DNA of 26,461 nucleotides, from positions 1 to 26,461 of IMG/VR virus record IMGVR_UViG_3300040781_000242; one strand, 5' to 3'. The notes under the pieces were generated by a model. It was not told the origin of the DNA. It saw only the letters and a program-made list of their open reading frames with translations, and made no database searches. This DNA is from a virus. This document shows positions 12,014-26,461 of this stretch, piece after piece; the stretch's first letter is position 1; each line of letters starts with the position of its first letter. Both the position numbers and the translations under genes were made by a program.

Positions 12014-12626
12014 GGTTGTTGATTTCAAATGTATCAAGGTACAGAATGAAATTGACTGGTTTGTGAGAACCAGTCTTGTACCCGTGAGTTTGCAGTCTGG
12101 TGAAATTAGCATTCGAGATGTAGAGCAATGCTTGGATACCATGGACCTGCCATTCAAAAAAAGTGGTGTGAAACTTATCAATGCTTTTGTAAAAACTAAT
12201 GCCGTTACTGGTTTACACGCTGCCGCTATTCGTGAATACGATTCACTATATAACAATCTTAAATCCAAAAACAGAAGATTCAAATTTTCACAGGTGCTAG
12301 ATAATTACCGCATGACCATAAACCCCCTTACTGCATTCTATTATGAGTGTCGTGAGATGCGGAGGGTATGGGACCCATCTAACGGGTATCATTCTTGGCT
12401 ATTACGAACTGCACAGGATCATGAGTTTTACAGTTGCATTGTAAAAGCATTGGATCATGATCTCGAGGCTTTAACCAGATACACCAATCGCTATTATTGG
12501 TTGCTTCTTTACATGAAGAAAGAAATGCCTATAGAAGTTTATCATGCCAAGCAATTCATGGAAGACTTGAATGATTATCGTGAATTCTTCACAGAGCTAC
12601 GTGAGTGGACCCCGCCTACCACTTGA
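12006..12626 (+). CDS. Unknown 206-aa phage protein
   Basis: No family recognised. The protein (MTKVVDFKCIKVQNEIDWFV...) is helix-rich with many aromatic and charged residues (YYECREMRRVW, RYTNRYYWLLLYMKK) and no clear membrane segment or signal. I prefer the GTG at 12006 because GGGAG lies 5 nt upstream; the in-frame GTG at 12000 would overlap that ribosome site. It has its own TATAAATA late promoter, so expression with virion genes is likely. Its 3' end overlaps that of the convergent bilin reductase gene by 11 nt. It could be a minor virion or assembly protein. Confidence 0.7.
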   Translation: MTKVVDFKCIKVQNEIDWFVRTSLVPVSLQSGEISIRDVEQCLDTMDLPFKKSGVKLINAFVKTNAVTGLHAAAIREYDSLYNNLKSKNRRFKFSQVLDNYRMTINPLTAFYYECREMRRVWDPSNGYHSWLLRTAQDHEFYSCIVKALDHDLEALTRYTNRYYWLLLYMKKEMPIEVYHAKQFMEDLNDYREFFTELREWTPPTT

Positions 12627-13215
12627 CTGTGGGGAACAACATGGTCTCCATGAACTCACGAGCACGTTGCTCACCTACATGGCTCTTGAGCATGCGGAAT
12701 GTTTGCGGGTTGCGTCGTTGCCCGTCTATGTAACGCTGTTGGCCAGCTGCGTTATCGCCTGTAGGTATGCCAGGAAGCTCATACTCCAAGTAATAGTTTA
12801 ACACATACACGCCCATCATGAGATCACGTAAATCAGGCTTGCAGCACACAAACTCATCACTGAAAAAGTCTCCCCACTCTGGGATCGGTCTCGGTTCACC
12901 CACTCTGGGCAGTGTGGGTGGTGGAGTATCATCCACTGGTGTGACATCCAAGAACATGCCCGTGAGATTACCATTGATCTCTATGGCGTCAAAACCGAAT
13001 ATGGGTGCGTTTGTATGAGTGTGTGGCATTATCACACAATGTATCACGCTAACTTTTTCAGTCCAGTAGTTTTCCAGATGAGCTCTGGCAAATTTGTCAC
13101 TTTGCCACACATAGTTTTCCCACCCATAGTCAGGCACACCAATTTGTGTGCCGTGATTTTCCAGCAAGTCGTAAAGCTGATTACTGACTTGTCTGAGTGA
13201 CTCGGAATATTTCAT
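12616..13215 (-). CDS. pcyX: Ferredoxin-dependent bilin reductase, PcyA/PcyX-like
   Basis: Predicted to reduce biliverdin IXalpha to a phycobilin using ferredoxin electrons. Residues 57-94 (SVIHCVIMPHTHTNAPIFGFD, then GMFLDVTP) match the active-site block of PcyA and PebS, with Asp90 in the place of the catalytic PcyA/PebS Asp105. The C-terminus (QQRYIDGQRRNPQTFRML, then GEQRAREFMETMLF) closely follows PcyA. At 199 residues it is shorter than PcyA or PebS (about 230-250). The second acidic residue (PcyA Asp220, PebS Asp206) seems replaced by Asn169-Pro170. The start overlaps the heme oxygenase end by 35 nt; no other good start exists. PcyX, a phage enzyme related to PcyA and known to make phycoerythrobilin, is the likely class, but the product cannot be read from sequence alone. 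Confidence 0.8.
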   Translation of the reverse strand: MKYSESLRQVSNQLYDLLENHGTQIGVPDYGWENYVWQSDKFARAHLENYWTEKVSVIHCVIMPHTHTNAPIFGFDAIEINGNLTGMFLDVTPVDDTPPPTLPRVGEPRPIPEWGDFFSDEFVCCKPDLRDLMMGVYVLNYYLEYELPGIPTGDNAAGQQRYIDGQRRNPQTFRMLKSHVGEQRAREFMETMLFPTVKW

Positions 13216-13702
13216 CGTATAAGTCCATGCTCAACTTGAATCCCAAGTTGGCTTCATCTGCTAATTCTTCTTCCCTGCCAGCCAGTTCAGCTCGCATGTA
13301 GTCCACTAGCTCTTTACGAGACTCAAAGTCCATGTGTGATTTGTTTTCGTAAGGCACCATCTTCTTGAGCATTTGTCCACCAAACAGTTCACCCATGTAA
13401 TGCACATACAAGTGACCCCAGATAGCTGCATCATCAAGAGACTGCAAATGTTCCAGGTACTTGTGTGTAGCACCCAGCAACACTCTGGGCAGTTTGTTAC
13501 AGTCTTCAAACAGGCGTTCCTCACGACGCAAATTCTCAGGAAGTTCTATTCTGCTCTCAATGTACTTGTACAGGTGATACTTTTGATGCAGTAGCAAAGT
13601 CCACTGCTTTTCCGTAATGCTGCCGTCAAAGATGCTCTTGTTAAGAGGCAGTTCCTCGATTGCATCATGTGATGCTTGCGTTAGCTCGCGTAAGGTAGCC
13701 AT
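13181..13702 (-). CDS. ho1: Heme oxygenase (biliverdin-forming)
   Basis: Opens heme to biliverdin, CO and iron. The 173-residue protein shows the HO fold markers: proximal heme ligand His12 in ASHDAIE, and the distal helix signature YVHYMGELFGGQML at about 99-112, equivalent to YxRYLGDLSGGQxL. The family's catalytic Asp (human Asp140) is Glu105 here. It is shorter than cyanobacterial HO1 (about 240 residues), mostly by loss of the C-terminus and shorter loops. The ATG overlaps the stop of the oxygenase-like gene in TAATG, and the bilin reductase follows with a 35-nt overlap. This makes a coupled heme-to-bilin unit. Iron release could be an alternative or added role. Confidence 0.88.
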   Translation of the reverse strand: MATLRELTQASHDAIEELPLNKSIFDGSITEKQWTLLLHQKYHLYKYIESRIELPENLRREERLFEDCNKLPRVLLGATHKYLEHLQSLDDAAIWGHLYVHYMGELFGGQMLKKMVPYENKSHMDFESRKELVDYMRAELAGREEELADEANLGFKLSMDLYDEIFRVTQTSQ

Positions 13703-14313
13703 TATTTCTCCACGTCGAAAAAGAACATATGCCAGAGTCGACAGTTAAATTTGTCTGAACCAAAATAGTCACTTGCGCTGTGCAAGCATCCACCATCAAA
13801 TAACACCAGGCGGTTAAAGATATTACCAAAGCTATCCACTTGATCATATCGAGTGCGATCACTAAATGTATCACCAGGAAATACTTCCCAGCCCTGGCCA
13901 CTTTCCCAGTCAACCTGGCTGTTGTGCCACACACGGTGCTTCTTGTGCATCCAAGTGCTTGTTCCACAGCTTGGTGGTGCATCAGGGGTGAGATAGATCA
14001 TGCCAGCCCACATCTGCTCGTCACAATGATATACCAAACGCTCGCCAGCCACGTTATGCTGGAAGCGGGAGTTCATTCCATAAGTTTCATTCCAGCCAGT
14101 TACTTCTTTACCAATGAGCTCACTAAAAGCTTCCTTGACACCAGGTATGTCGTGCTGTGTGCGAGTGCGCTTGCCAATGTATCCTGGATCATCATAAAAG
14201 TCTTGTTGCAGTGCGTAGTCACGCACAGCATAAGGATCTTTGTAGAAGTTGTCCACAACAATAGCACGTTTAGACTTTTGAAAATCTGGATTTACTCTTA
14301 ATATTCCGTCCAT
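13702..14313 (-). CDS. 2-oxoglutarate/Fe(II)-dependent oxygenase-like protein
   Basis: The 203-residue protein has the facial triad expected of 2OG oxygenases: HxD at His96-Cys-Asp98, a distal histidine at about 178 (LFDGGCLHSA), and a candidate 2OG-binding Arg192 in CRLWHMF. The segment WAGMIYLTPDAPP just after HxD is typical of small phage and marine bacterial oxygenases of this class. The substrate is unknown; protein, nucleotide or sugar hydroxylation are all possible. It starts 1 nt after the GT2 stop and its own stop overlaps the heme oxygenase start (TAATG), so it belongs to the same polycistron. It may act on the carbohydrate pathway or, less likely, on the bilin. Confidence 0.75.
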   Translation of the reverse strand: MDGILRVNPDFQKSKRAIVVDNFYKDPYAVRDYALQQDFYDDPGYIGKRTRTQHDIPGVKEAFSELIGKEVTGWNETYGMNSRFQHNVAGERLVYHCDEQMWAGMIYLTPDAPPSCGTSTWMHKKHRVWHNSQVDWESGQGWEVFPGDTFSDRTRYDQVDSFGNIFNRLVLFDGGCLHSASDYFGSDKFNCRLWHMFFFDVEK

Positions 14314-14314
14314 G

Positions 14315-15157
14315 TTAAAATCCTAGGTGTTTGCTTCTGACAAAGTTTAGGTCCCACGTTGAATAGTCAATGGGTATGTCTGCCTTGCCATACGGATGTT
14401 GTACTGGCTGGCACACTCTCCAATCAGGACCCCATTTTTGTGTCATGTACTCGATGTTTATCTGATTGATTGCATCCAGTTTGCCAGTGAGAGCAGGATC
14501 TGACTTCTTGGTTTGACTACCAGCATTTTCATTGTAGTAGTCACTTGCTTTAGCAAAACCGTGCCAGTAGTCGTTTTCAGTACCCACCATTTTCACAATG
14601 GGGCGATGGATCATGCGCATGATGTAATCAGCATCTTCGTTATATGCCGGGTAGGTGTTTTCATCAAACAGACCAAACTCTTGCACAATGATATCGCGTA
14701 TCATGAACAAGTCCCAAGCGCCAATGTTAAAGTCGCCTTCGTTAGGATGGATCATGCCCAGTTGTGGGTATTCTTCCATGAGATCATGCATTTCTTTCAG
14801 CAACCCTGGTCCAAACGCCACGTCATCGTTTGTGATCAACCAGTAAGGCGCGTTCATGTAACACTTGATGATCAAGTTCCATGCGCCACCACAACCAATG
14901 TTAGCTGGCATGTGTGTTACGGTCACCTTCTTGACATACTCGTGTTTGATGCTCTTGAGTGCATCCAGATCCGCATCAATAATACCACGCCCGTTGTTGT
15001 TGATAATCACAAACTCATCAACTGGATAATCCACACTCATTAGCAGTCGTGACACCCAATACGGGTTGTTGACAACCGCTGTGCCAATTACAGGGATACT
15101 CTTGCGAGGTTCTGCCTGCACTACTTCCTGTTCAGGAACATTTACTTCTTGGTCCAC
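14315..15157 (-). CDS. Family 2-type glycosyltransferase
   Basis: GT-A fold glycosyltransferase predicted to transfer a sugar from a nucleotide sugar. The 280-residue protein shows an N-terminal Rossmann-like start (IPVIGTAVVNNPYWVSRLL), NIGCGGAWN at 86-93, the metal-binding ITNDDVAFGPGLL (Asp111-Asp112), and a likely catalytic acidic pair in YPAYNEDADYIMR (Glu174-Asp175). The start is a GTG with GGGGAG upstream; the FkbM gene ends immediately before it. The target is unknown; fibre protein or host-surface glycan are the obvious candidates in this context. The remaining C-terminal 80 residues carry no recognised domain. Confidence 0.85.
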   Translation of the reverse strand: MDQEVNVPEQEVVQAEPRKSIPVIGTAVVNNPYWVSRLLMSVDYPVDEFVIINNNGRGIIDADLDALKSIKHEYVKKVTVTHMPANIGCGGAWNLIIKCYMNAPYWLITNDDVAFGPGLLKEMHDLMEEYPQLGMIHPNEGDFNIGAWDLFMIRDIIVQEFGLFDENTYPAYNEDADYIMRMIHRPIVKMVGTENDYWHGFAKASDYYNENAGSQTKKSDPALTGKLDAINQINIEYMTQKWGPDWRVCQPVQHPYGKADIPIDYSTWDLNFVRSKHLGF

Positions 15158-15158
15158 C

Positions 15159-16481
15159 TTATTCTCTCCCCATCATGTATGATTCGGCACTCTTGGTGTC
15201 ATCGTGCTTTTGCATTAGTTGTTCAATCGTTTCTGCGCTCACCAGATCAGGATGTACATACCAGTCCTCATAGGGGCGTGGTGAATCGTCTGGTGAAATG
15301 TTACCTGCTACCAACACATAACCATATGACTCCAGATACTTGCGGCTCTTGGCGCGATAAGAATCGTCTGGATCAGTATAATGATCATGCTCGTATGTGA
15401 TTGTGGCGAACTTGAATTCCTCGAAAGGAATGTTTAGCAGTATCTTGTATGTGGTTGCTGCTGGCTCACAGTCAAGTTGCAAGTAGTCAAATTCTCGCTC
15501 ACCATCAAAGATGCTGTCCAAGAAAGCAGTGTAGTTAACTCCAGTTGCATCACGGATAACGCAAGGATTGGCTCGTTGTGCGTTAAAGTTGTTTGCTAAT
15601 CCTTCGTCAAGTTCCAGGCTGATGCCTTTCCAAGCATACTCACGCTCTAACAGCACAGTGTTGTTTCCGTACTCTGCGTTACCTGCTCCCACTTCCACAT
15701 ACTTGCCTTCGCGCTTGCCGCCAGTTGCTGCCAACACAAACATATCCTGGTAGCTCTCGCTGAAGTTGCGGCGTATTAGTTTGGAGTTGTCAAACTTCAC
15801 ACGCAAGTCTTTATGCATGTTCTGCTGATAGCTCTGAATCTCTTTGGTGCAAAATGCGTTAAGCTGGATCAAGTTGGTTTTTACCAATTGCTTGAGGTTG
15901 GAATCCAACTCTGGCTGTGCCCAAAGTGCCAGGAACAGTTTACGAGATTCATCACACATACCACACCACCATGCTGCGGCGGCATGCTGTACGGCGATGC
16001 TATCTCTTCCGGGATAGTCCACATCAGTTCGCAAAAGCTCAAGCTCTCCAGCAGCAAAGCTATCAGCAGCACGTAGACCCAAGGTGGCCCATGTGTAGCT
16101 GTCAAACCAGTTACCGTCACCACCTTCGTTACTGGTGATCTTGCCCAGCATGTAATATGCTTCAGGACGTTCTGGGCGCAATGCTATTGCATGTTGCAGC
16201 ATGCCTTTAACGCTAAACTTGCGAATGCCTTGTGCGTCAAAACACATGGCTGCGCGGATCATGCACTCGTACTGCCACAATGTGTCGTCCTCAATGCGCT
16301 CTACTGTGCGAATGTAAAAGCCCACTGCTGGCGCATGTTGGCCATTCTCATGATACCACAATGCCAACTTCCAGTTTAGTTCTGGGTCTGCAGGTGTTTG
16401 AATGTAAGCCTGTAGCAGGCCGTCAAACTCTTCCAGGTCAAATTGTTCTAGTTCGTCTGCTATATTAAGATATTGATTCAT
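15159..16481 (-). CDS. TPR-like repeat plus FkbM-type methyltransferase
   Basis: The 440-residue protein has an N-terminal helical region (about 1-225) with TPR-like patterns (LNWKLALWYHENGQHAPAVGF, PEAYYMLGKI). A C-terminal SAM-dependent methyltransferase domain of the FkbM type follows. Motif I is KYVEVGAGNAEYGNNT (260-275), the acidic SLELDE (288-293) follows, and FDYLQLDCEP (331-340) is the FkbM-like post-motif. FkbM enzymes usually O-methylate sugars or small molecules. The start overlaps the end of the propeller-protein gene by 17 nt; the GT2 gene follows directly. TPR plus FkbM fusions are common in surface-glycan loci, which supports a carbohydrate role. Confidence 0.82.
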   Translation of the reverse strand: MNQYLNIADELEQFDLEEFDGLLQAYIQTPADPELNWKLALWYHENGQHAPAVGFYIRTVERIEDDTLWQYECMIRAAMCFDAQGIRKFSVKGMLQHAIALRPERPEAYYMLGKITSNEGGDGNWFDSYTWATLGLRAADSFAAGELELLRTDVDYPGRDSIAVQHAAAAWWCGMCDESRKLFLALWAQPELDSNLKQLVKTNLIQLNAFCTKEIQSYQQNMHKDLRVKFDNSKLIRRNFSESYQDMFVLAATGGKREGKYVEVGAGNAEYGNNTVLLEREYAWKGISLELDEGLANNFNAQRANPCVIRDATGVNYTAFLDSIFDGEREFDYLQLDCEPAATTYKILLNIPFEEFKFATITYEHDHYTDPDDSYRAKSRKYLESYGYVLVAGNISPDDSPRPYEDWYVHPDLVSAETIEQLMQKHDDTKSAESYMMGRE

Positions 16482-17454
16482 CGATATAATCCATTAGTGT
16501 GTTTTGGGCCACTCTCATCACAAATGCAGCGTTATCCTGGAAGCCAAATGTCAACAAAACGTCGTCACCCTGCATGCACATTCCCACGCTGAACTCCACA
16601 TCTCCATCCAGGATGCTGAAGTCTGGTGTGTACTTGACCAGGTTCCAGTCATTGTCCCAGATCAAGAAGCGGTGTCGGTAAATGGCATCTTTGCGACCCA
16701 CTTCACTGTGGAACAAAGCAACTTCGTGTGTCATGGTGATACGATGGTTTTCATCCAAGCGTATTACTTGTGAGCCGCCGCGCTGATCGTTGGGCAAATA
16801 AATGGGCTTGCCCAGGAACACAGTTTCGCTTGTCTTTTCAACTGGGTCTACTTTGACAATCTCTACTGGGTTACACCATTTGACAAAACAGTAAGGCATG
16901 TCATCAATAGGCATCCAGTTCTTTTCGCAAAAGCTGTCAGGGTCGTTTGGTGGTGGGATGCGGAAGCGGCTTACTTCCTTGATCACTGCACCATCTTCCA
17001 CAATCTCACAAAGCTCCATGCGGCCTTCGCCGTTTGGCTTGAGATCACGTCGCACACCTGTGGTGTACAGTTTGCCATCGCCCCAGTCAATCAATCTGGC
17101 ATCTTCCAATCCCACAAAATCCCACTTCTCCTGCTCAGGGAAGTTAGTGGTATCAATCTTGTGTAGTTTGGTGATGTTTAGATCGTCGTCCAGTTCGCCA
17201 TACCAGTTCCAGGTACGCAAATGCATATCGTTCTCTGGGTGCAAATATGTTAATGGACCGAAAGGATGCTGAAACAGTTTCTTTTCTGAATGATAGAAGG
17301 TGTAGTTCACCTGCCGTATGTTAATCAGTATCTTGCCGTTGCGATTGTAGATACTGGGATTCATCAGGCCTGTACCGCCCGTGTGTTTGCCTGGGATTAG
17401 CAAGGGCTTGATTACTGCTCCTCGATCCACCGCGTACTTCGCAAAGTTTTCCAT
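16465..17454 (-). CDS. GH130-like five-bladed beta-propeller protein
   Basis: The 329-residue protein shows the repeated strand pattern and the GLEDARL motif (115-121, followed by WGDGKLYTTGVRRD) typical of the GH130 mannoside phosphorylase/hydrolase family and its relatives. It also has MNPSIYNRNGKILINIR near the N-terminus. GH130 enzymes phosphorolyse or hydrolyse mannosides. Whether this protein is catalytic cannot be judged from motifs alone; phage members may be sugar-binding or transferase-like. It is the first gene of the six-gene operon, and a short intergenic segment with a hairpin separates it from the upstream fibre gene. No strong Shine-Dalgarno is visible before its ATG. Confidence 0.68.
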   Translation of the reverse strand: MENFAKYAVDRGAVIKPLLIPGKHTGGTGLMNPSIYNRNGKILINIRQVNYTFYHSEKKLFQHPFGPLTYLHPENDMHLRTWNWYGELDDDLNITKLHKIDTTNFPEQEKWDFVGLEDARLIDWGDGKLYTTGVRRDLKPNGEGRMELCEIVEDGAVIKEVSRFRIPPPNDPDSFCEKNWMPIDDMPYCFVKWCNPVEIVKVDPVEKTSETVFLGKPIYLPNDQRGGSQVIRLDENHRITMTHEVALFHSEVGRKDAIYRHRFLIWDNDWNLVKYTPDFSILDGDVEFSVGMCMQGDDVLLTFGFQDNAAFVMRVAQNTLMDYIDESIS

Positions 17455-17529: not shown

Positions 17530-20500
17530 TTACATCAGGGTGACTATGACTTCAATAACGGTGGACCCCGCAACGTCTGTAGATTCAATTGCCTTGCCCA
17601 GAATACGTCCTGGTGCAGCAAAGTTATTGACCGCAGCGTGACCAGCAATACCTGAACTCACCAATATATCGCCCTGAGTTACTGGCCCGATTACTTTGCA
17701 TGGTACGCGGCCTGCTAGTGCCAAGTATGGGTGCGTTTCATCATCACCAGCCTTCTTGTTCATCATGAACGCAGGTTCTGTGGATATAACCCCAGCAAGT
17801 CTATGGTCGTTTGCGATGGTACTCTGGGTTATTTCGGCATTGCCCCCAAATACCACCACTGTGCCTTTTTCAACTGGTGCATCAATTTCATAACGCTCCG
17901 CCAAGTCAGCAAAGGTTGCTGTTGTGGCTTCACCATCAAACAGATTGGCATGCACAGTGTCCCAGTTAAGCGTGGCTGATCCAATATCTTGAGTATTATT
18001 TGCAGCTGGTAACAAGTCACCACCAGCATTGACTCTCAATAGACTGGTTGACTCAAGCGTGGTTCCGTTATAACGCAACGTCTGAGTATCTGTTCCGCCC
18101 GGGTTGGGCCCTTCGACACCCTGAATACCTTGACGTCCTTGAGTGCCTTGTGTACCAGTTGTGCCTTGTGTACCAGTTGTACCTTGTGTACCAGTTGTAC
18201 CTTGACTACCAGTTGTTCCCTGAATACCTTGTACGCCTTGCTGGCCAGTTGTGCCTTGGCGACCTTGGGTTCCTTGACTACCAGTCGTACCCTGTCGTCC
18301 TTGTGTGCCCTGGCTGCCAGTTGTACCTTGACTACCAGTTGTTCCCTGGATACCTTGTACGCCTTGTGTACCGGTTGTACCTTGGCGACCTTGGGTTCCT
18401 TGACTACCAGTCGTACCCTGTCGTCCTTGTGTTCCCTGGCTGCCAGTTGTGCCCTGTTGTCCAGTTGTGCCCTGGATGCCCTGAACACCTTGTTGTCCAG
18501 TTGTACCTTGGCTACCAGTTGTGCCTTGTCGTCCCTGTGTACCTTGTGTGCCTTGTGTACCAGTTGTGCCCTGGATGCCCTGAACACCTTGTTGTCCAGT
18601 TGTACCTTGTTGTCCAGTTGTACCTTGTTGTCCAGTCGTACCTTGTTGTCCAGTCGTACCTTGAATACCTTGAACACCTTGTAGACCTTGTTGACCGAAT
18701 GTTCCCTGAGTACCTTGTGTACCAGTTGTACCTTGTTGTCCAGTTGTGCCTTGTTGTCCAGTCGTACCTTGTGTACCTTGCTGTCCAGTTGTACCTTGTT
18801 GTCCAGTCGCTCCCTGGATACCTTGAACACCCTGTTGTCCAGTCGTGCCTTGCTGTCCAGTTGTACCTTGTTGTCCTGTTGTACCTTGTGTACCTTGTTG
18901 GCCAGTTGTACCTTGTTGGCCAGTTGTACCTTGTGTACCTTGTTGACCAGTTGTACCTTGTTGGCCAGTTGTACCCTGGATGCCTTGTACACCCTGTAGT
19001 CCACCACCACCGTTAAATCCGCTGATGCCCTGGATACCTTGCGTTCCCTGTGTGCCTTGGCTTGCTTGTGTTCCTTGCAGACCTTGAGTACCCAAAATAC
19101 CTTGCAGGCCCTGTCCACCAAATATACCTTGGATACCTTGAGTACCTTGAGTACCTTGAGTACCTTGTTGACCGGTGTTGCCTTGGGTTCCTTGGGTTCC
19201 TTGCTGGCCAGTAGTGCCTTGGAGTCCTTGAATACCTTGTGAACCCAAAGTACCATCAATACCCTGAACGCCTTGAACTCCTTGTTGGCCAGTTGTTCCT
19301 TGCGCGCCTTGTAGACCCTGGGTTCCTTGGGTTCCTTGTTGACCGGTGTTGCCTTGGGTTCCTTGGGTTCCTTGCTGGCCAGTAGTGCCTTGGAGTCCTT
19401 GAATACCTTGTGAACCCAATGTACCATCAATACCCTGAACGCCTTGAACGCCCTGTGTACCTTGTGTACCTTGGGTTCCTTGTGTGCCTTGCGTTCCCTG
19501 TGTGCCTTGCGTTCCTTGCTGCCCAGTTGTGCCTTGCGTTCCTTGGAGTCCTTGGATACCTTGTGAACCCAAAGTACCATCAATACCCTGAACGCCTTGT
19601 TGGCCTGTTGTTCCTTGTGACGCTTGGGTGCCTTGAAGGCCTTGGATACCTTGAACACCTTGTATACCATCAGTACCTTGTGTTCCCGATATTCCCTGGA
19701 TACCTGGATCGCCTTCTGTTCCCTGGGTTCCTTGTGCACCCTGGGTTCCATCAAGACCGATTGTTCCCTGGCTGCCTATAATACCCTGGCGGCCTTGTGT
19801 TCCTTGTTGTCCGAACGTGCCCTGAGTACCGGTTTGCCCTTGGATACCTTGACTAGCCTGCGTTCCTTGTAGTCCCTGTGTTCCCTGAATGCCTTGAACA
19901 CCTTGTGTTCCCTGAGTTCCTTGACGACCTTGTAGGCCTTGTGTGCCCTGGATGCCCTGAGTACCTTGACGACCTTGAGTACCTTGAGTACCTTGCTGGC
20001 CCAGAGTACCCTGACTACCAGTTGTGCCTTGTGTACCAGTCTCGCCTTGTATTCCCTGAGTGCCCTGGGTACCTTGTGTGCCCTGCTGGCCCAGAGTACC
20101 CTGGCTACCAGTTGTGCCTTGAGGACCAGTATCACCTTGAATGCCTTGCTGGCCCTGGATACCTTGTTGACCCTGGGTTCCTTGAGTGCCTTGAGTACCT
20201 TGTTGGCCAGTTGTGCCTTGTAGTCCCTGGAAACCAGTAGAACCCTGAAGTCCTTGTTGACCAGTTGTGCCTTGTCGTCCTTGAGCTCCTTGTGTACCTT
20301 GTTGTCCGAATGTACCTTGTGTTCCCTGAATACCTTGCGTACCTTGTGTACCCTGGCGTCCTTGTGTGCCTTGTGCACCAGTGTCGCCCTGAATACCTTG
20401 TGTACCAGTATTTCCCTGAAGTCCTTGAGTGCCTTGTGTTCCTTGCAGGCCCTGTGTGCCTTGTTGGCCTGTTGTACCCTGACGACCTTGACTTCCCTGA

Positions 20501-21864
20501 GTGCCTTGTAATCCCTGAGTGCCTTGTAATCCCTGAGTACCTTGCAGACCTTGGATGCCCTGTCGTCCTTGGCGTCCTTGCAGGCCCTGTGTGCCTTGCA
20601 GACCTTGACGACCCTGTGATCCCTGGGTGCCTTGTGTGCCCTGCTGGCCCTGTGATCCTTGTAGTCCTTGTGTTCCTTGCAGTCCTTGAGTACCTTGTGT
20701 TCCCTGAGTACCTTGAGTACCTTGCTGTCCAGTTGTACCCTGACGACCTTGAGTGCCTTGTGTTCCCTGCAAGCCTTGTGTACCAGTATCTCCTTGGATA
20801 CCTTGTTGCCCTTGAGTGCCTTGCAGGCCTTGTGTGCCCTGGCTTCCTTGTGTACCAGTCTCACCTTGGATTCCCTGAGTACCTTGTGTTCCCTGAGTAC
20901 CTTGTGTACCTTGGAGTCCTTGCTGACCCTGCAGACCTTGTTGACCAAATGTTCCCTGAGTACCTTGAGTACCTTGTTGTCCAGTTGTTCCCTGTCGTCC
21001 TTGGCTGCCCTGAGTACCTTGGATACCCTGTGCTGCCTGTGTTCCCTGACGTCCTTGTGTGCCTTGGGTACCTTGAATTCCTTGTGTACCTTGTAGACCT
21101 TGTTGACCAAATGTTCCCTGAGTACCTTGAGTACCTTGTTGTCCTGTTGTTCCCTGTCGTCCTTGGCTGCCTTGAATACCGGTATCGCCCTGTATGCCCT
21201 GGGTGCCTTGCAGACCCTGGGTACCTTGTTGTCCGTTTGTTCCTTGAGTACCAGTGTTACCCTGGGTTCCTTGAGTACCTTGTGTCCCCTGGCTTCCTTG
21301 TAGACCTTGCGTTCCTTGTATGCCCTGGATGCCTTGCACACCTTGAGTGCCCTGGATGCCTTGAATGCCCTGGGTACCTTGTGTACCTTGACGACCCTGT
21401 GTACCTTGCTGGCCTTGTATTCCTTGTGACGCTTGAGTTCCTTGAAGTCCTTGTGTTCCTTGGATACCCTGCAGGCCTTGTATTCCCTGGTTTCCTTGTG
21501 TGCCTTGGCTACCGGTTGTACCTTGGCGTCCTTGGCTACCCTGGATGCCTTGGTTACCTTGTATGCCCACAGAGCCTTGAGTACCAACTGTTCCTTGTCG
21601 TCCTTGTGTGCCTTGGGTTCCTTGTGTACCTTGAGTGCCTTGTAGTCCTTGGATACCCTGAATGCCCTGGGTTCCTTGTGGGCCTTGGAGACCCTGCTGT
21701 CCTTGTACGCCTTGCTGACCTTGAATGCCTTGAGTGCCTTGTGGGCCCTGAGGACCAATCAGACCCTGCACACCCTGTCCGCCGCCACCCTGGATTCCCT
21801 GGATACCTTGAATACCCTGGTTACCCACGTAGGTGTTATTTAGAAAGTCACTTAAATTAGACAT
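17530..21864 (-). CDS. Giant collagen-like tail fibre protein (Gly-X-Gln repeats)
   Basis: The 1444-residue protein has a short N-terminus (MSNLSDFLNNTYVG), then about 410 Gly-X-Y triplets to residue 1252, then a 192-residue globular C-terminus. In most triplets Y is Gln and X is Thr, Ile, Leu, Val or Arg; Pro and Lys are almost absent. The C-terminus (NNTQDIGSATLNWDTVHANLF, FADLAERYEIDAPVEKGTVVVFGG, GRVPCKVIGPVTQGDILV) is of a kind I recognise from tail fibre and structural proteins of marine T4-like phages. The repeats should form a long trimeric stalk. The ATG lies 23 nt after a GATAAATA octamer, with only a weak ribosome site. One triplet-phase break occurs near residue 30 (GGGGQGV). Confidence 0.85.
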   Translation of the reverse strand: MSNLSDFLNNTYVGNQGIQGIQGIQGGGGQGVQGLIGPQGPQGTQGIQGQQGVQGQQGLQGPQGTQGIQGIQGLQGTQGTQGTQGTQGRQGTVGTQGSVGIQGNQGIQGSQGRQGTTGSQGTQGNQGIQGLQGIQGTQGLQGTQASQGIQGQQGTQGRQGTQGTQGIQGIQGTQGVQGIQGIQGTQGLQGSQGTQGTQGTQGNTGTQGTNGQQGTQGLQGTQGIQGDTGIQGSQGRQGTTGQQGTQGTQGTFGQQGLQGTQGIQGTQGTQGRQGTQAAQGIQGTQGSQGRQGTTGQQGTQGTQGTFGQQGLQGQQGLQGTQGTQGTQGTQGIQGETGTQGSQGTQGLQGTQGQQGIQGDTGTQGLQGTQGTQGRQGTTGQQGTQGTQGTQGTQGLQGTQGLQGSQGQQGTQGTQGSQGRQGLQGTQGLQGRQGRQGIQGLQGTQGLQGTQGLQGTQGSQGRQGTTGQQGTQGLQGTQGTQGLQGNTGTQGIQGDTGAQGTQGRQGTQGTQGIQGTQGTFGQQGTQGAQGRQGTTGQQGLQGSTGFQGLQGTTGQQGTQGTQGTQGQQGIQGQQGIQGDTGPQGTTGSQGTLGQQGTQGTQGTQGIQGETGTQGTTGSQGTLGQQGTQGTQGRQGTQGIQGTQGLQGRQGTQGTQGVQGIQGTQGLQGTQASQGIQGQTGTQGTFGQQGTQGRQGIIGSQGTIGLDGTQGAQGTQGTEGDPGIQGISGTQGTDGIQGVQGIQGLQGTQASQGTTGQQGVQGIDGTLGSQGIQGLQGTQGTTGQQGTQGTQGTQGTQGTQGTQGTQGVQGVQGIDGTLGSQGIQGLQGTTGQQGTQGTQGNTGQQGTQGTQGLQGAQGTTGQQGVQGVQGIDGTLGSQGIQGLQGTTGQQGTQGTQGNTGQQGTQGTQGTQGIQGIFGGQGLQGILGTQGLQGTQASQGTQGTQGIQGISGFNGGGGLQGVQGIQGTTGQQGTTGQQGTQGTTGQQGTTGQQGTQGTTGQQGTTGQQGTTGQQGVQGIQGATGQQGTTGQQGTQGTTGQQGTTGQQGTTGTQGTQGTFGQQGLQGVQGIQGTTGQQGTTGQQGTTGQQGTTGQQGVQGIQGTTGTQGTQGTQGRQGTTGSQGTTGQQGVQGIQGTTGQQGTTGSQGTQGRQGTTGSQGTQGRQGTTGTQGVQGIQGTTGSQGTTGSQGTQGRQGTTGSQGTQGRQGTTGQQGVQGIQGTTGSQGTTGTQGTTGTQGTTGTQGTQGRQGIQGVEGPNPGGTDTQTLRYNGTTLESTSLLRVNAGGDLLPAANNTQDIGSATLNWDTVHANLFDGEATTATFADLAERYEIDAPVEKGTVVVFGGNAEITQSTIANDHRLAGVISTEPAFMMNKKAGDDETHPYLALAGRVPCKVIGPVTQGDILVSSGIAGHAAVNNFAAPGRILGKAIESTDVAGSTVIEVIVTLM
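18110..21825 (-). repeat. 9-bp-period Gly-X-Y coding repeat of fibre 1
   Basis: About 3.7 kb of degenerate 9-bp units (plus strand CCTTGnGTn-like), encoding Gly-X-Gln. The repeat has few stop codons in any frame, so long spurious reading frames appear on both strands. It contains longer internal duplications, for example 19163-19278 against 19334-19449. Confidence 0.9.
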
Positions 21865-22399: not shown

Positions 22400-22962
22400 C
22401 CGTAAAGTGCCGTCCAGTCTCGTTGTTGGCTTGCTTCTGCGTATCCTTCTAAAGGAAAGGAAAACAAGAAGCCAGGTATATAGTTTGCATCCACTGTGGT
22501 CTGAACTCCTGCTGGCAGGGTGTTACCAAACAAGTACTTACACATGGTTGCCGTGCGCGAATTTTCCGCGCAAATGTTCAAAATTTCCATTTGTACATCT
22601 GCGTTGCATCTGATGTACAATTCATGATGTGCGATTGCCCAACTAAATGTGGCTGCCATTCTGGGGAATGGCTCCCGTAGTTCCAAACATTCGCTAACGA
22701 TAATAGTGTTGCTGGGCACATCGGCATTGTCCATCATGACTTCACACACAGTGAGCCAGTGGCAAGGAGGAGCAATATTGGATATAAGTCCTTCAGCGTT
22801 GGCTGTCTGATATAAATCCATCATGACATTCCATGCGCCATCATCCATGCCCCACTTGTGTCCTGGAGTATAGCCGGTATCATATGACAAGTACTCAGCC
22901 TTGTGATCCAAGTTCATGGCTTCACCGGCTATCTCATACCAATTTAAACTTATGTTAGCCAT
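22396..22962 (-). CDS. Unknown 188-aa probable virion protein
   Basis: The protein ([21 protein letters not shown]...) contains several Cys and aromatic residues and no recognised domain. The frame is open 7 codons further upstream, but the ATG at 22960-22962 overlaps the stop of fibre 2 as TAATG, so that start is preferred. It is translationally coupled at both ends (TAATG in, ATGA out), implying production in step with fibre 2. A fibre-tip or assembly role is plausible by context only. Confidence 0.7.
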   Translation of the reverse strand: MANISLNWYEIAGEAMNLDHKAEYLSYDTGYTPGHKWGMDDGAWNVMMDLYQTANAEGLISNIAPPCHWLTVCEVMMDNADVPSNTIIVSECLELREPFPRMAATFSWAIAHHELYIRCNADVQMEILNICAENSRTATMCKYLFGNTLPAGVQTTVDANYIPGFLFSFPLEGYAEASQQRDWTALYG

Positions 22963-25900
22963 TATACGGAAGTGTCTACCCAAATGTCGCCAACCGATGG
23001 CCCTGGTGGCGGTGTTGAGCTCACTGTTACCAGACTGTTAAGTCCATCAGTACCTTGGATACCCTGGATGCCTTGTATGCTGACCCCTTGAAGTCCTTGG
23101 TTACCAAATATACCTTGCAGGCCGGTGCTTCCCTGGATGCCTTGCACGTTAGCGTCTGTGCCTTGTGTACCGGTGATTCCTTGGATACCTTGGCGTCCTT
23201 GTGTACCCTGTATGCCTTGTTGACCGAAAGTACCTTGTAGTCCGTCATTACCACCTGTTCCCTGGGTACCTTGTCGTCCCTGAATACCCTGTTGCCCAAG
23301 TAATCCTTGTGTGCCTTGCGTACCAGTTTGACCTTGTGTACCGGTTGTGCCCTGACTACCAGTTGTGCCTTGAAGTCCTTGCACGCCTTGGGAACCAGTT
23401 GTACCTTGACGCCCTTGCGTTCCTTGTGAACCCACTGCGCCTTGAACACCGTCCTCACCAGCAGTACCCTGAATACCCAGTACACCTTGTAGACCGCGTG
23501 AGCCTTGTGCACCTTGTGATCCAGCGATACCACTAGTACCTTGTGATCCAGTATTACCAGTTGTGCCTTGGAGTCCTTGTGAACCTTGTGTACCAGTTGT
23601 GCCTTGTGTACCGTTTGTACCGCCCGTGCCTTGCAGGCCCTGTTGTCCAGTAGTGCCTTGACGTCCTTGTGTTCCTTGGCTGCCCTGTGTGCCAGTTGTA
23701 CCCTGTGATCCATCATTACCAGCAGTACCTTGAGAGCCTGTTGCACCCAAGATACCCTGTGTGCCTTGAATACCTTGTTGTCCGAACGTGCCTTGTGTTC
23801 CTTGACGGCCTTGTGTTCCTTGCAGTCCATTAGCGCCCTGGACGCCAAATGTTCCTTGGATGCCTTGACTACCAGTCTGGCCCTGAGCGCCTTGCAAACC
23901 CTGATTACCCTGTAGTCCAGTAGTTCCCTGAATACCTTGAGAACCCTGTGTGCCAGTTGTACCTTGTAATCCATCGTTACCAGCAGTACCTTGCGACCCA
24001 AGCGTTCCTTGAATACCCTGAGTGCCCTGGATACCTTGTGTACCAGTTGTTCCTTGTGTACCCTGGCGGCCTTGTGTTCCCTGGAGTCCTTGTAATCCCT
24101 GGGCACCTTGTATACCATCAGTTCCTTGTAGGCCCTGAATTCCCTGGCGGCCTTGTGTTCCCTGGGTACCTTGGGTTCCTTGTTGGCCGTCAGTACCCTG
24201 CGCACCAATAGTACCAGTTTGTCCTTGTGAACCCGTTGTTCCCTGAGTACCCTGACTACCAATTATTCCCTGTGTACCTTGAATGCCTTGCTGGCCCGTT
24301 GTTCCCTGGCGTCCTTGTGTGCCTTGGATACCTTGTGTACCTTGCTGTCCAAACGTTCCTTGCGTACCAGTGCTACCTTGAGTACCCTGGTTACCAGTTG
24401 TGCCTTGCGAGCCAGTAGTTCCTTGGATACCCTGGGTGCCTTGGATGCCTTGTGTTCCTTGACGTCCTTGCGTACCCTGGTTACCAGTTGTGCCTTGTGT
24501 ACCTTGTGTACCTTGCAGGCCCTGAATTCCTTGAGTACCTTGGGTGCCTTGGATACCCTGGAGTCCTTGTGTGCCTTGGCTTCCTTGTAAGCCGTCTGTA
24601 CCTTGTGTACCAGTGTTGCCTTGGGTGCCTTGAGTACCTTGACGTCCTTGTGCACCCTGGCTGCCTTGTATGCCCTGCACACCTTGTTGACCAAATGTAC
24701 CTTGAGTTCCTTGGGTACCCTGACTACCAGTTGTTCCTTGGCGTCCCTGGGTTCCTTGTATTCCTTGCTGACCAAAGTTACCCTGAATGCCTTGTGATCC
24801 AGTTGTGCCCTGTCGTCCTTGGCTTCCTTGGGTGCCTTGTGTTCCTTGCGTACCCTGTGTGCCTTGCTGGCCCTGAAGACCTTGCTGGCCTTGGATACCC
24901 TGGATACCCTGAGTACCTTGAGTTCCTTGGGTACCTTGAGTACCTTGAGTACCTTGAGTTCCTTGTATGCCCTGGGTGCCTTGAGTGCCTTGTTGGCCTT
25001 GTATGCCTTGGATACCTTGTCCAGTTATACCCTGAATACCCTGTTGGCCAAAGTTACCTTGAACACCTTGTATACCAGCACCATCTGCGCCTTGTATTCC
25101 TTGCAATCCTAGACGACCAACGTTAGCCGTAACCTGCCAGGTGCTACCATCCCATACAAAACGCACCTCAGTATCCTGTACATCAAGTACAAGCTCATGT
25201 GTTTGGCTTTCAATTGTATTGCCGTTAGGCGAGACGTTGACACTGACATTACTAAAATCGTCACCATCATAAATCCATATTGCATCACCAATTACTGGAG
25301 CGGATGGCAAATCAATCGTAAAAGGTGTACCCTCAGGATCAGCAATAATAGCATCTTGTGGGTTAGCAGTGTATGCACTTGTTATGCGGATATAACGGAA
25401 TGTAATACCTTGCAGACCTTGTATGCCCTGGATACCTTGCAGACCCTGTGTTCCTTGAACGCCTTGCAGACCTTGTATGCCCTGGATACCTTGAGATCCA
25501 CCAATTCCTTGTGCCCCGGTTATTCCTTGCTGTCCGGTTATTCCTTGAGTTCCTTGGATACCCTGAACACCTTGTGTTCCTTGAACGCCTTGAATACCTT
25601 GAACGCCTTGAGTACCCTGGATGCCTTGAACACCTTGAATGCCTTGAGTACCCTGGATGCCTTGAACACCTTGAACGCCTTGCTGTCCAGTTATACCCTG
25701 GATGCCTTGCAGGCCCTGTGTGCCTTGAATTCCCTGTACACCCTGGTTGCCTTGAGTTCCTTGGACACCCTGGATTCCCTGAATGCCTTGAGTTCCCTGT
25801 ACGCCTTGAATGCCTTGAACGCCTTGTATTCCCTGTACGCCCTGCGTTCCTTGAACGCCTTGTATTCCCTGTACGCCCTGCGCTCCTTGAACGCCTTGTA

Positions 25901-26461
25901 TTCCCTGTACGCCCTGCGTTCCTTGAACGCCTTGAATGCCTTGAACGCCTTGCGTGCCTTGAACGCCTTGCGTTCCTTGAACGCCTTGCGTTCCTTGAAC
26001 GCCTTGAATGCCTTGAACGCCTTGCGTTCCTTGAACGCCTTGAACACCTTGAACGCCTTGTGTGCCCTGTGTTCCTTGCAGACCCTGTGTTCCTTGCAAT
26101 CCCTGGGTGCCCTGTGTTCCTTGCAATCCCTGGATACCTTGGGTACCTTGAGTTCCTTGAACACCTTGAATTCCTTGAGTGCCCTGGATACCCTGTGTAC
26201 CTTGAACACCTTGAATTCCTTGGATGCCTTGCGTTCCTTGAACACCTTGAATACCCTGGATGCCTTGCAGTCCCTGTGTTCCTTGAACACCTTGAATACC
26301 CTGGATGCCTTGGATACCTTGCGTTCCCTGCAAGCCCTGAGTTCCCTGGAGTCCTTGTATTCCTTGGATTCCTTGGATACCTTGTTGGCCCTGAATGCCT
26401 TGGATGCCTTGCAGGCCCTGTGTTCCTTGGATTCCCTGTACGCCTTGGATACCTTGTTGGC
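22962..26461 (-). CDS. Second giant collagen-like fibre protein (5' end outside window)
   Basis: At least 1166 codons, open to the right window edge, so the N-terminus is missing. It is made of Gly-X-Gln triplets with a single non-collagenous insert of about 95-100 residues (25114-25407; [21 protein letters not shown], then [12 protein letters not shown]). The edge-proximal stretch favours Val and Ile at X (GVQGIQG), while the rest favours Thr, Arg and Ser. The C-terminus is short and non-repetitive ([19 protein letters not shown]), lacking the large head seen in fibre 1. Apparent starts inside the repeat, such as the TTG near 26333, are not real starts. The stop overlaps the next gene's ATG (TAATG). 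Confidence 0.83.
25114..25407 (-). other. Non-collagenous globular module within fibre 2
   Basis: About 98 codons without Gly-X-Y periodicity interrupt the repeat. The segment reads as a small beta domain with alternating hydrophobics ([35 protein letters not shown]). It could be a trimerisation or carbohydrate-binding insert that registers the helix on either side. Confidence 0.7.
25815..25922 (-). repeat. Three tandem 36-bp units in fibre 2
   Basis: Units at 25815-25850, 25851-25886 and 25887-25922 are identical apart from one base, and encode four Gly-X-Gln triplets each. They indicate recent tandem duplication in the fibre stalk. Confidence 0.8.

Follow-up and report, generated by a model that had tools for sequence, protein, structure and literature searches.

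The window, as we call the whole stretch of 26,461 nt analysed here (IMG/VR record IMGVR_UViG_3300040781_000242), carries on its minus strand the genes of a heme oxygenase (HO) and of a ferredoxin-dependent bilin reductase (FDBR), with open reading frames that overlap by 35 nt. The best explanation for this pair, which we hold with good confidence, is a two-gene cassette for heme degradation and bilin synthesis, carried as auxiliary metabolic genes by a jumbo phage that belongs to the T4 superfamily. The FDBR reaches 67.9 bits against Pfam PF05996 (Fe_bilin_red; E 1.3e-18), where the gathering score is 31, and the HO 56.7 bits against PF01126 (Heme_oxygenase; E 3.9e-15), where it is 23. At these scores chance can be excluded as the source of both matches, and sequence together with predicted fold establishes the enzyme class of each protein. 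An earlier note on this DNA had described the overlapping minus-strand pair, had taken it for a heme-to-bilin cassette and had put the reductase in the FDBR family; on these points it is borne out alike by profile scores, by AlphaFold models and by fold matches in the PDB.

Table 1. Positions in the window of the genes of the cassette array and of the active-site residues of its two enzymes.
Feature	Position	Strand	Remarks
FDBR (ferredoxin-dependent bilin reductase), PcyA-type catalytic residues	12616..13215	-	199 aa, ATG start
FDBR Asp76 = PcyA Asp105	12988..12990	-	alignments
FDBR His59 = PcyA His88	13039..13041	-	alignments
FDBR Glu48 = position of PcyA Glu76 / PcyX Asp55	13072..13074	-	alignments
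HO (heme oxygenase), short	13181..13702	-	173 aa, ATG start; end 35 nt within FDBR gene
HO Glu105, at distal Asp140 position	13388..13390	-	alignment
HO His101, at Arg136 position	13400..13402	-	alignment
HO His12 = proximal heme ligand His25 of human HO-1	13667..13669	-	alignments
DUF6445 protein	13702..14313	-	PF20043 3.3e-9; overlaps HO start by 1 nt
Family 2 glycosyltransferase	14315..15157	-	PF00535 1.5e-5; PHROG galactosyl transferase 5e-21
TPR-like region	15159..16481	-	weak TPR match, below cut-off
Unassigned protein, first gene of tight array	16465..17454	-	no Pfam match; spacing

PcyA requires Glu76, His88 and Asp105, and its reduction of the 18-vinyl group depends on Glu76, which PcyX lacks (PMC10151467); PcyX carries Asp55 (PMC11480375). 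In the alignment made here Asp55 shares a column with Glu76, and the window FDBR has Glu48 there instead of Asp. The acidic residue and the following His are 11 residues apart in the window FDBR, as in most phage PcyA, and 14 apart in the PcyX type. Since the three PcyA residues are kept and both Asp55 and the longer loop are absent, phycocyanobilin is the likeliest product, a prediction from residues and model in which we have fair confidence. The earlier note had seen a PcyA/PcyX-like C-terminal signature. The N-P-x-T motif at that end does resemble PcyX, while the catalytic residues are those of PcyA.

Profile and fold comparisons lean to the same side. The NCBIfam PcyA model NF002760 gives 70 bits, under its 206-bit cut-off, so that the protein is filed under PcyA-type residues and not as a PcyA equivalog; the phycoerythrobilin (PEB) models give at most 18. 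A PDB sequence search returned PcyA 2g18 with E 4e-14 and, more weakly, PcyX 5owg with 9.9e-9. The AlphaFold model (pLDDT 95.8) shows the alpha/beta/alpha fold of FDBRs, and its top PDB fold match is again PcyA 2g18 (E 2e-13, TM 0.85 over the query), compared with 0.71 for PcyX and about 0.73 for PebS. This bears out the claim that the reductase is closer to PcyA/PcyX than to PebS. The fold and the catalytic triplet are thus common to the window FDBR and cyanobacterial PcyA (PDB 2G18, 2D1E), although the latter is longer (about 245 aa) and only about 23% identical. Other residues occur at the Glu76/Asp55 position elsewhere: Gln in compact FDBRs, and Ser, Asn or Glu in FDBRs with a PcyX backbone (loci L108, L110, L113; L042, L072, L084, L089; L046, L059; L032, L048, L139-L145). 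Glu, Asp, Gln, Ser and Asn are therefore available as natural variants for testing what determines phycocyanobilin versus phycoerythrobilin formation.

Phylogeny, which the earlier note had proposed as a check, separates PebS clearly, far outside, and leaves the finer placement of the reductase undecided. The phage FDBRs that are linked to an HO all fall into a single group (90/100), separate from cyanobacterial and cyanophage PcyA, and PcyX and its kin are a clade (100/97) within it. The best tree puts the window FDBR outside the PcyX clade and outside an 18-row compact clade (97/90). It also falls outside the PcyA clade, in a tree made without the bacterial PcyA of the AX clade and with an AU p of 0.185 for placement with cyanobacterial PcyA. 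Its closest relative is at most 39% identical. AU tests reject none of the PcyX, main-compact and cyanobacterial-PcyA placements (p 0.14–0.19), so it is residues and fold, and not phylogeny, that carry the PcyA assignment. As regards bacterial AX PcyA, a plasmid search gave no match and one scan of genome contigs returned solely a Bacteroidetes MAG contig (L095). The FDBR-like stretch of that contig has stops in the surrounding frame and lacks the Glu76/Asp55 residue; it is possibly phage-derived or decayed.

The HO matches human HO-1 and HO-2 in a PDB sequence search (about 1e-5), and its AlphaFold model (pLDDT 95.7) matches the folds of rat HO-1 and HmuO with TM 0.82–0.87. In common with HmuO and human HO-1 (PF01126) it has the fold, the glycine-rich distal helix and the proximal His, which is invariant in all 98 tabulated cassette HOs; Glu16, equivalent to Glu29 of HO-1, is kept too. 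Unlike them, this 173-aa protein is missing the canonical distal pair, with His for Arg136 and Glu for Asp140. In human HO-1 these two residues are thought to sustain oxygen activation, and the D140A variant is a peroxidase (PMC5623701), so the full activity of the window HO is not assured. A plant HO without both residues is still active by means of another hydrogen-bond network (PMC7948506). Asp140 is present in 72 of 72 cassettes with a long-loop (PcyX-backbone) FDBR (45/45 at 70% non-redundancy) and in 6 of 26 with a compact one (5/21), where Trp, Asn, Pro, Leu, Tyr or Glu may replace it. The window HO, with its Glu, is one of this compact class. From these sequences we take the separation of long-loop from compact cassettes to be a real class difference. 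Nevertheless, on the HO tree three changes suffice to explain the substitution pattern, and for this reason the loss of Asp140 is not independent evidence of altered function. Given this, and the activity of the plant enzyme, ordinary HO activity is retained as most likely for the window protein.

The two genes are the downstream end of a six-gene minus-strand array in which the successive gaps, counted from the FDBR, are -35, -1, 1, 1 and -17 nt. In the order of the array there come an unassigned protein, a TPR-containing protein, a family 2 glycosyltransferase, a DUF6445 protein, the HO and the FDBR. From the spacing we infer that the six genes are co-transcribed, and the DUF6445 gene is probably co-transcribed with the HO. 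An H-x-D...H pattern, seen by eye, suggests that the DUF6445 protein is 2OG-Fe(II) dioxygenase-like, and the C-terminus of the TPR-containing protein is, also by eye, possibly methyltransferase-like. The array had been called a glycan-modification operon; its abutting and overlapping genes fit an operon, but only one recognisable glycosyltransferase is among them. Promoter-like sites are no commoner than in shuffled sequence. There are two T4-late-type TATAAATA sites, neither of them upstream of the cassette array, and an Rfam search gave no match. Directly upstream of the array lie two collagen-like G-x-Q repeat proteins (17530-21864, 1444 aa; 22962-26333, at least 1123 aa), which are probably fibres.

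Other cassettes have other neighbours. A RyR-domain gene is directly upstream of the HO in 16 of 28 compact-class cassettes (among L104-L128), whereas neither the window nor any of the 72 long-loop loci has one. In PcyX-class cassettes (L168, L169 and about 30 others), a short family that looks by eye like ClpS and a second one that looks like Hsp20 occur just upstream of the HO, each in 32 of 72.

The window matches the end of a 64,009-bp linear IMG/VR contig (UViG 3300040801_001103) with 3 mismatches. The T4-superfamily families gp15, head-tail adaptor, gp17, tail tube and UvsX are present, so that the description of the phage as T4-like was correct in a wide sense; the nearest relatives are a jumbo-phage lineage of that superfamily. 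The gp17 is 63% identical to that of PA5oct, about 54% to those of Phosso and Atu_ph07 and 37% to that of the pelagiphage Mosig, whereas gp15 is 39.5% identical to that of Sinorhizobium phage Phosso and 39% to that of PA5oct. Relatives of gp15 also occur on HO- and FDBR-bearing contigs, among them ones of 452,799, 518,643 and 278,126 bp. Because gp17 and gp15 are nearest to those of PA5oct, Phosso and Atu_ph07, we infer a jumbo phage of the T4 superfamily, seen here as a 64-kb fragment; judged by these genes, it is neither a cyanophage nor a pelagiphage. The records of PA5oct, Phosso and Atu_ph07, unlike the window, have no HO or FDBR match. Cassette type does not track phage lineage, as a 265,892-bp contig (L067) has a gp17 62% identical to that of the window contig and yet a PcyX-type cassette with the canonical HO Asp. 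The large terminase gene gp17 is split into pieces of 310 and 383 aa (L010:9399-12224, which corresponds to 28399-31224 of the parent contig) by an HNH-type homing-endonuclease ORF (PHROG 4.7e-15), with no Rfam intron match at the interruption.

Several other explanations must be weighed against a cassette that makes phycocyanobilin from heme. We think it unlikely that the FDBR is functionally a PcyX, which would form phycoerythrobilin by way of 15,16-dihydrobiliverdin, like the enzymes of marine phages. The gene order and the N-P-x-T motif match PcyX cassettes, and a clade of the window FDBR with PcyX is not rejected (p 0.145), but the Glu at position 55/76, the shorter loop, the position outside the PcyX clade in the best tree and a model nearer to PcyA all speak against it. 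It is also improbable that the HO is impaired or altered by the His and Glu in its distal network, being peroxidase-like or of other regiochemistry, and that the pair does not carry out ordinary biliverdin-to-phycocyanobilin synthesis. The uneven distribution of Asp140 and the peroxidase activity of D140A would favour such a change; the retained proximal His, Glu partner and glycine helix, the working plant enzymes, the few changes on the HO tree and a paired FDBR with its three catalytic residues intact go against it. Possible, if rather doubtful, is a separate jumbo-phage cassette class, in which a PcyA-type reductase accompanies an HO without the canonical Arg-Asp oxygen-activation network; the HO might use a plant-like network or give a different heme-cleavage outcome, to which the reductase would be tuned.

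The remaining alternatives concern the purpose of the pair. A cyanophage light-harvesting cassette, whose bilin would feed host phycobilisomes, is very unlikely: cyanophages do carry PcyA and PebS genes, but the cyanophage PcyA genes sampled have no HO partner nearby, the structural genes are nearest to those of Pseudomonas and rhizobial jumbo phages, and photosynthesis genes are not among the Pfam matches listed. Supply of iron to the neighbouring dioxygenase-like DUF6445 protein, in a functional trio, seems extremely unlikely to us. The overlap of that gene with the HO start agrees with it, as do the several 2OG oxygenase genes and the ferrochelatase gene just upstream of the HO in Mosig. 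Nonetheless, of 98 cassettes only 9 have a related dioxygenase gene next to the HO, on which ground a 2OG-Fe(II) dioxygenase was rejected as a general third member. Dioxygenase genes of this type are common in the phages concerned, and it is nearly established that they adjoin the HO no more often than they would elsewhere in these genomes.

In the preferred cassette, the HO would open host heme to biliverdin IXalpha, Fe2+ and CO, and the FDBR, fed by host ferredoxin, would pull biliverdin off the HO and reduce it by four electrons, likeliest to phycocyanobilin and not to phycoerythrobilin; a bilin-binding protein of the host might then take up the reduced bilin. These reactions, their product and the co-transcription of the pair are deduced from the gene and protein features given above. 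The simplest reading of the purpose is that iron is freed from heme and the bilin is reduced afterwards; alternatively, the bilin may serve a host photoreceptor as chromophore. Our best guess is that the phage gains by turning over host heme, which would give free iron, with reduction of the bilin by host ferredoxin. The lack of a visible phycobiliprotein gene, already pointed out for the window, extends further: no Fer2 ferredoxin, PHY-domain phytochrome or phycobiliprotein is above cut-off in the 64-kb contig or in 17 other cassette-bearing IMG/VR contigs (the largest of 453 and 519 kb). Sub-threshold matches to PF00502, in ORFs of 2,700–3,200 aa, were judged to be repeat-protein noise. Therefore, the electrons must be supplied either by the host or by a phage gene beyond the fragment, and any bilin acceptor must be the host's. 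Among three named phage genomes checked, Mosig alone has a Fer2 ferredoxin.

The pairing of the two genes is conserved, the FDBR being the next gene after the HO, usually with overlap, in 95 of 100 unique HO-bearing cassettes of the sampled set. A conserved-motif scan of IMG/VR found at least 589 FDBR relatives, and cassettes of hemO with pcyX or pcyA/X, with and without valaS, have been reported (Wegner et al. 2024, PMC11480375). Because of these relatives, the Mosig pair and the published cassettes, the window pair belongs to a known kind, and the novelty implied by the earlier note was overstated, HO with PcyX (marine) and HO with PcyA (freshwater CB_2, active enzymes) being already in print. 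Its sequence is distant and its combination of features informative.

Compared by published features, CB_2 is close to the window. It is a large freshwater phage with a proposed non-photosynthetic host, whose HO makes biliverdin IXalpha and whose adjoining FDBR, also without the PcyX Asp55, makes phycocyanobilin (PMC11480375). Mosig EXVC030M (MT647606; PcyX EBK42635, PDB 5OWG), with the order 2OG oxygenase, HO, FDBR, resembles the window in gene order, overlapping ORFs and the upstream 2OG-oxygenase-type gene. It differs in having Asp55, the longer loop, the canonical HO Arg-Asp, its own ferredoxin and another phage lineage, and its FDBR and HO are only 23% and 28% identical to those of the window.

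So far, bilin cassettes had been described in pelagiphages and in a small number of freshwater phages, and what they do in a host that has no phycobilisomes is an unsolved problem. The window adds to them a lineage of jumbo phages near PA5oct, Phosso and Atu_ph07, and linked active-site features divide the cassettes into two classes. Asp, Trp, Asn, Pro and Glu at HO position 140 are natural variants for probing the oxygen-activation needs of the enzyme. Heterologous tests are a realistic prospect, since isolated relatives of the phage grow on laboratory Pseudomonas, Sinorhizobium and Agrobacterium.

In a search for pmoC (PF04896), eight records and the control alike gave no match. CB_2 carries valaS, unlike the 64-kb contig of the window and all compact-class contigs tested, and valaS was rejected as a cassette partner, being found only on a PcyX-type contig of 278 kb. 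This jumbo-type contig (L166, G044; 278,126 bp) encodes AlaS at 91590-92768, a strong match (E 4e-172) that lies about 55 kb away from its cassette.
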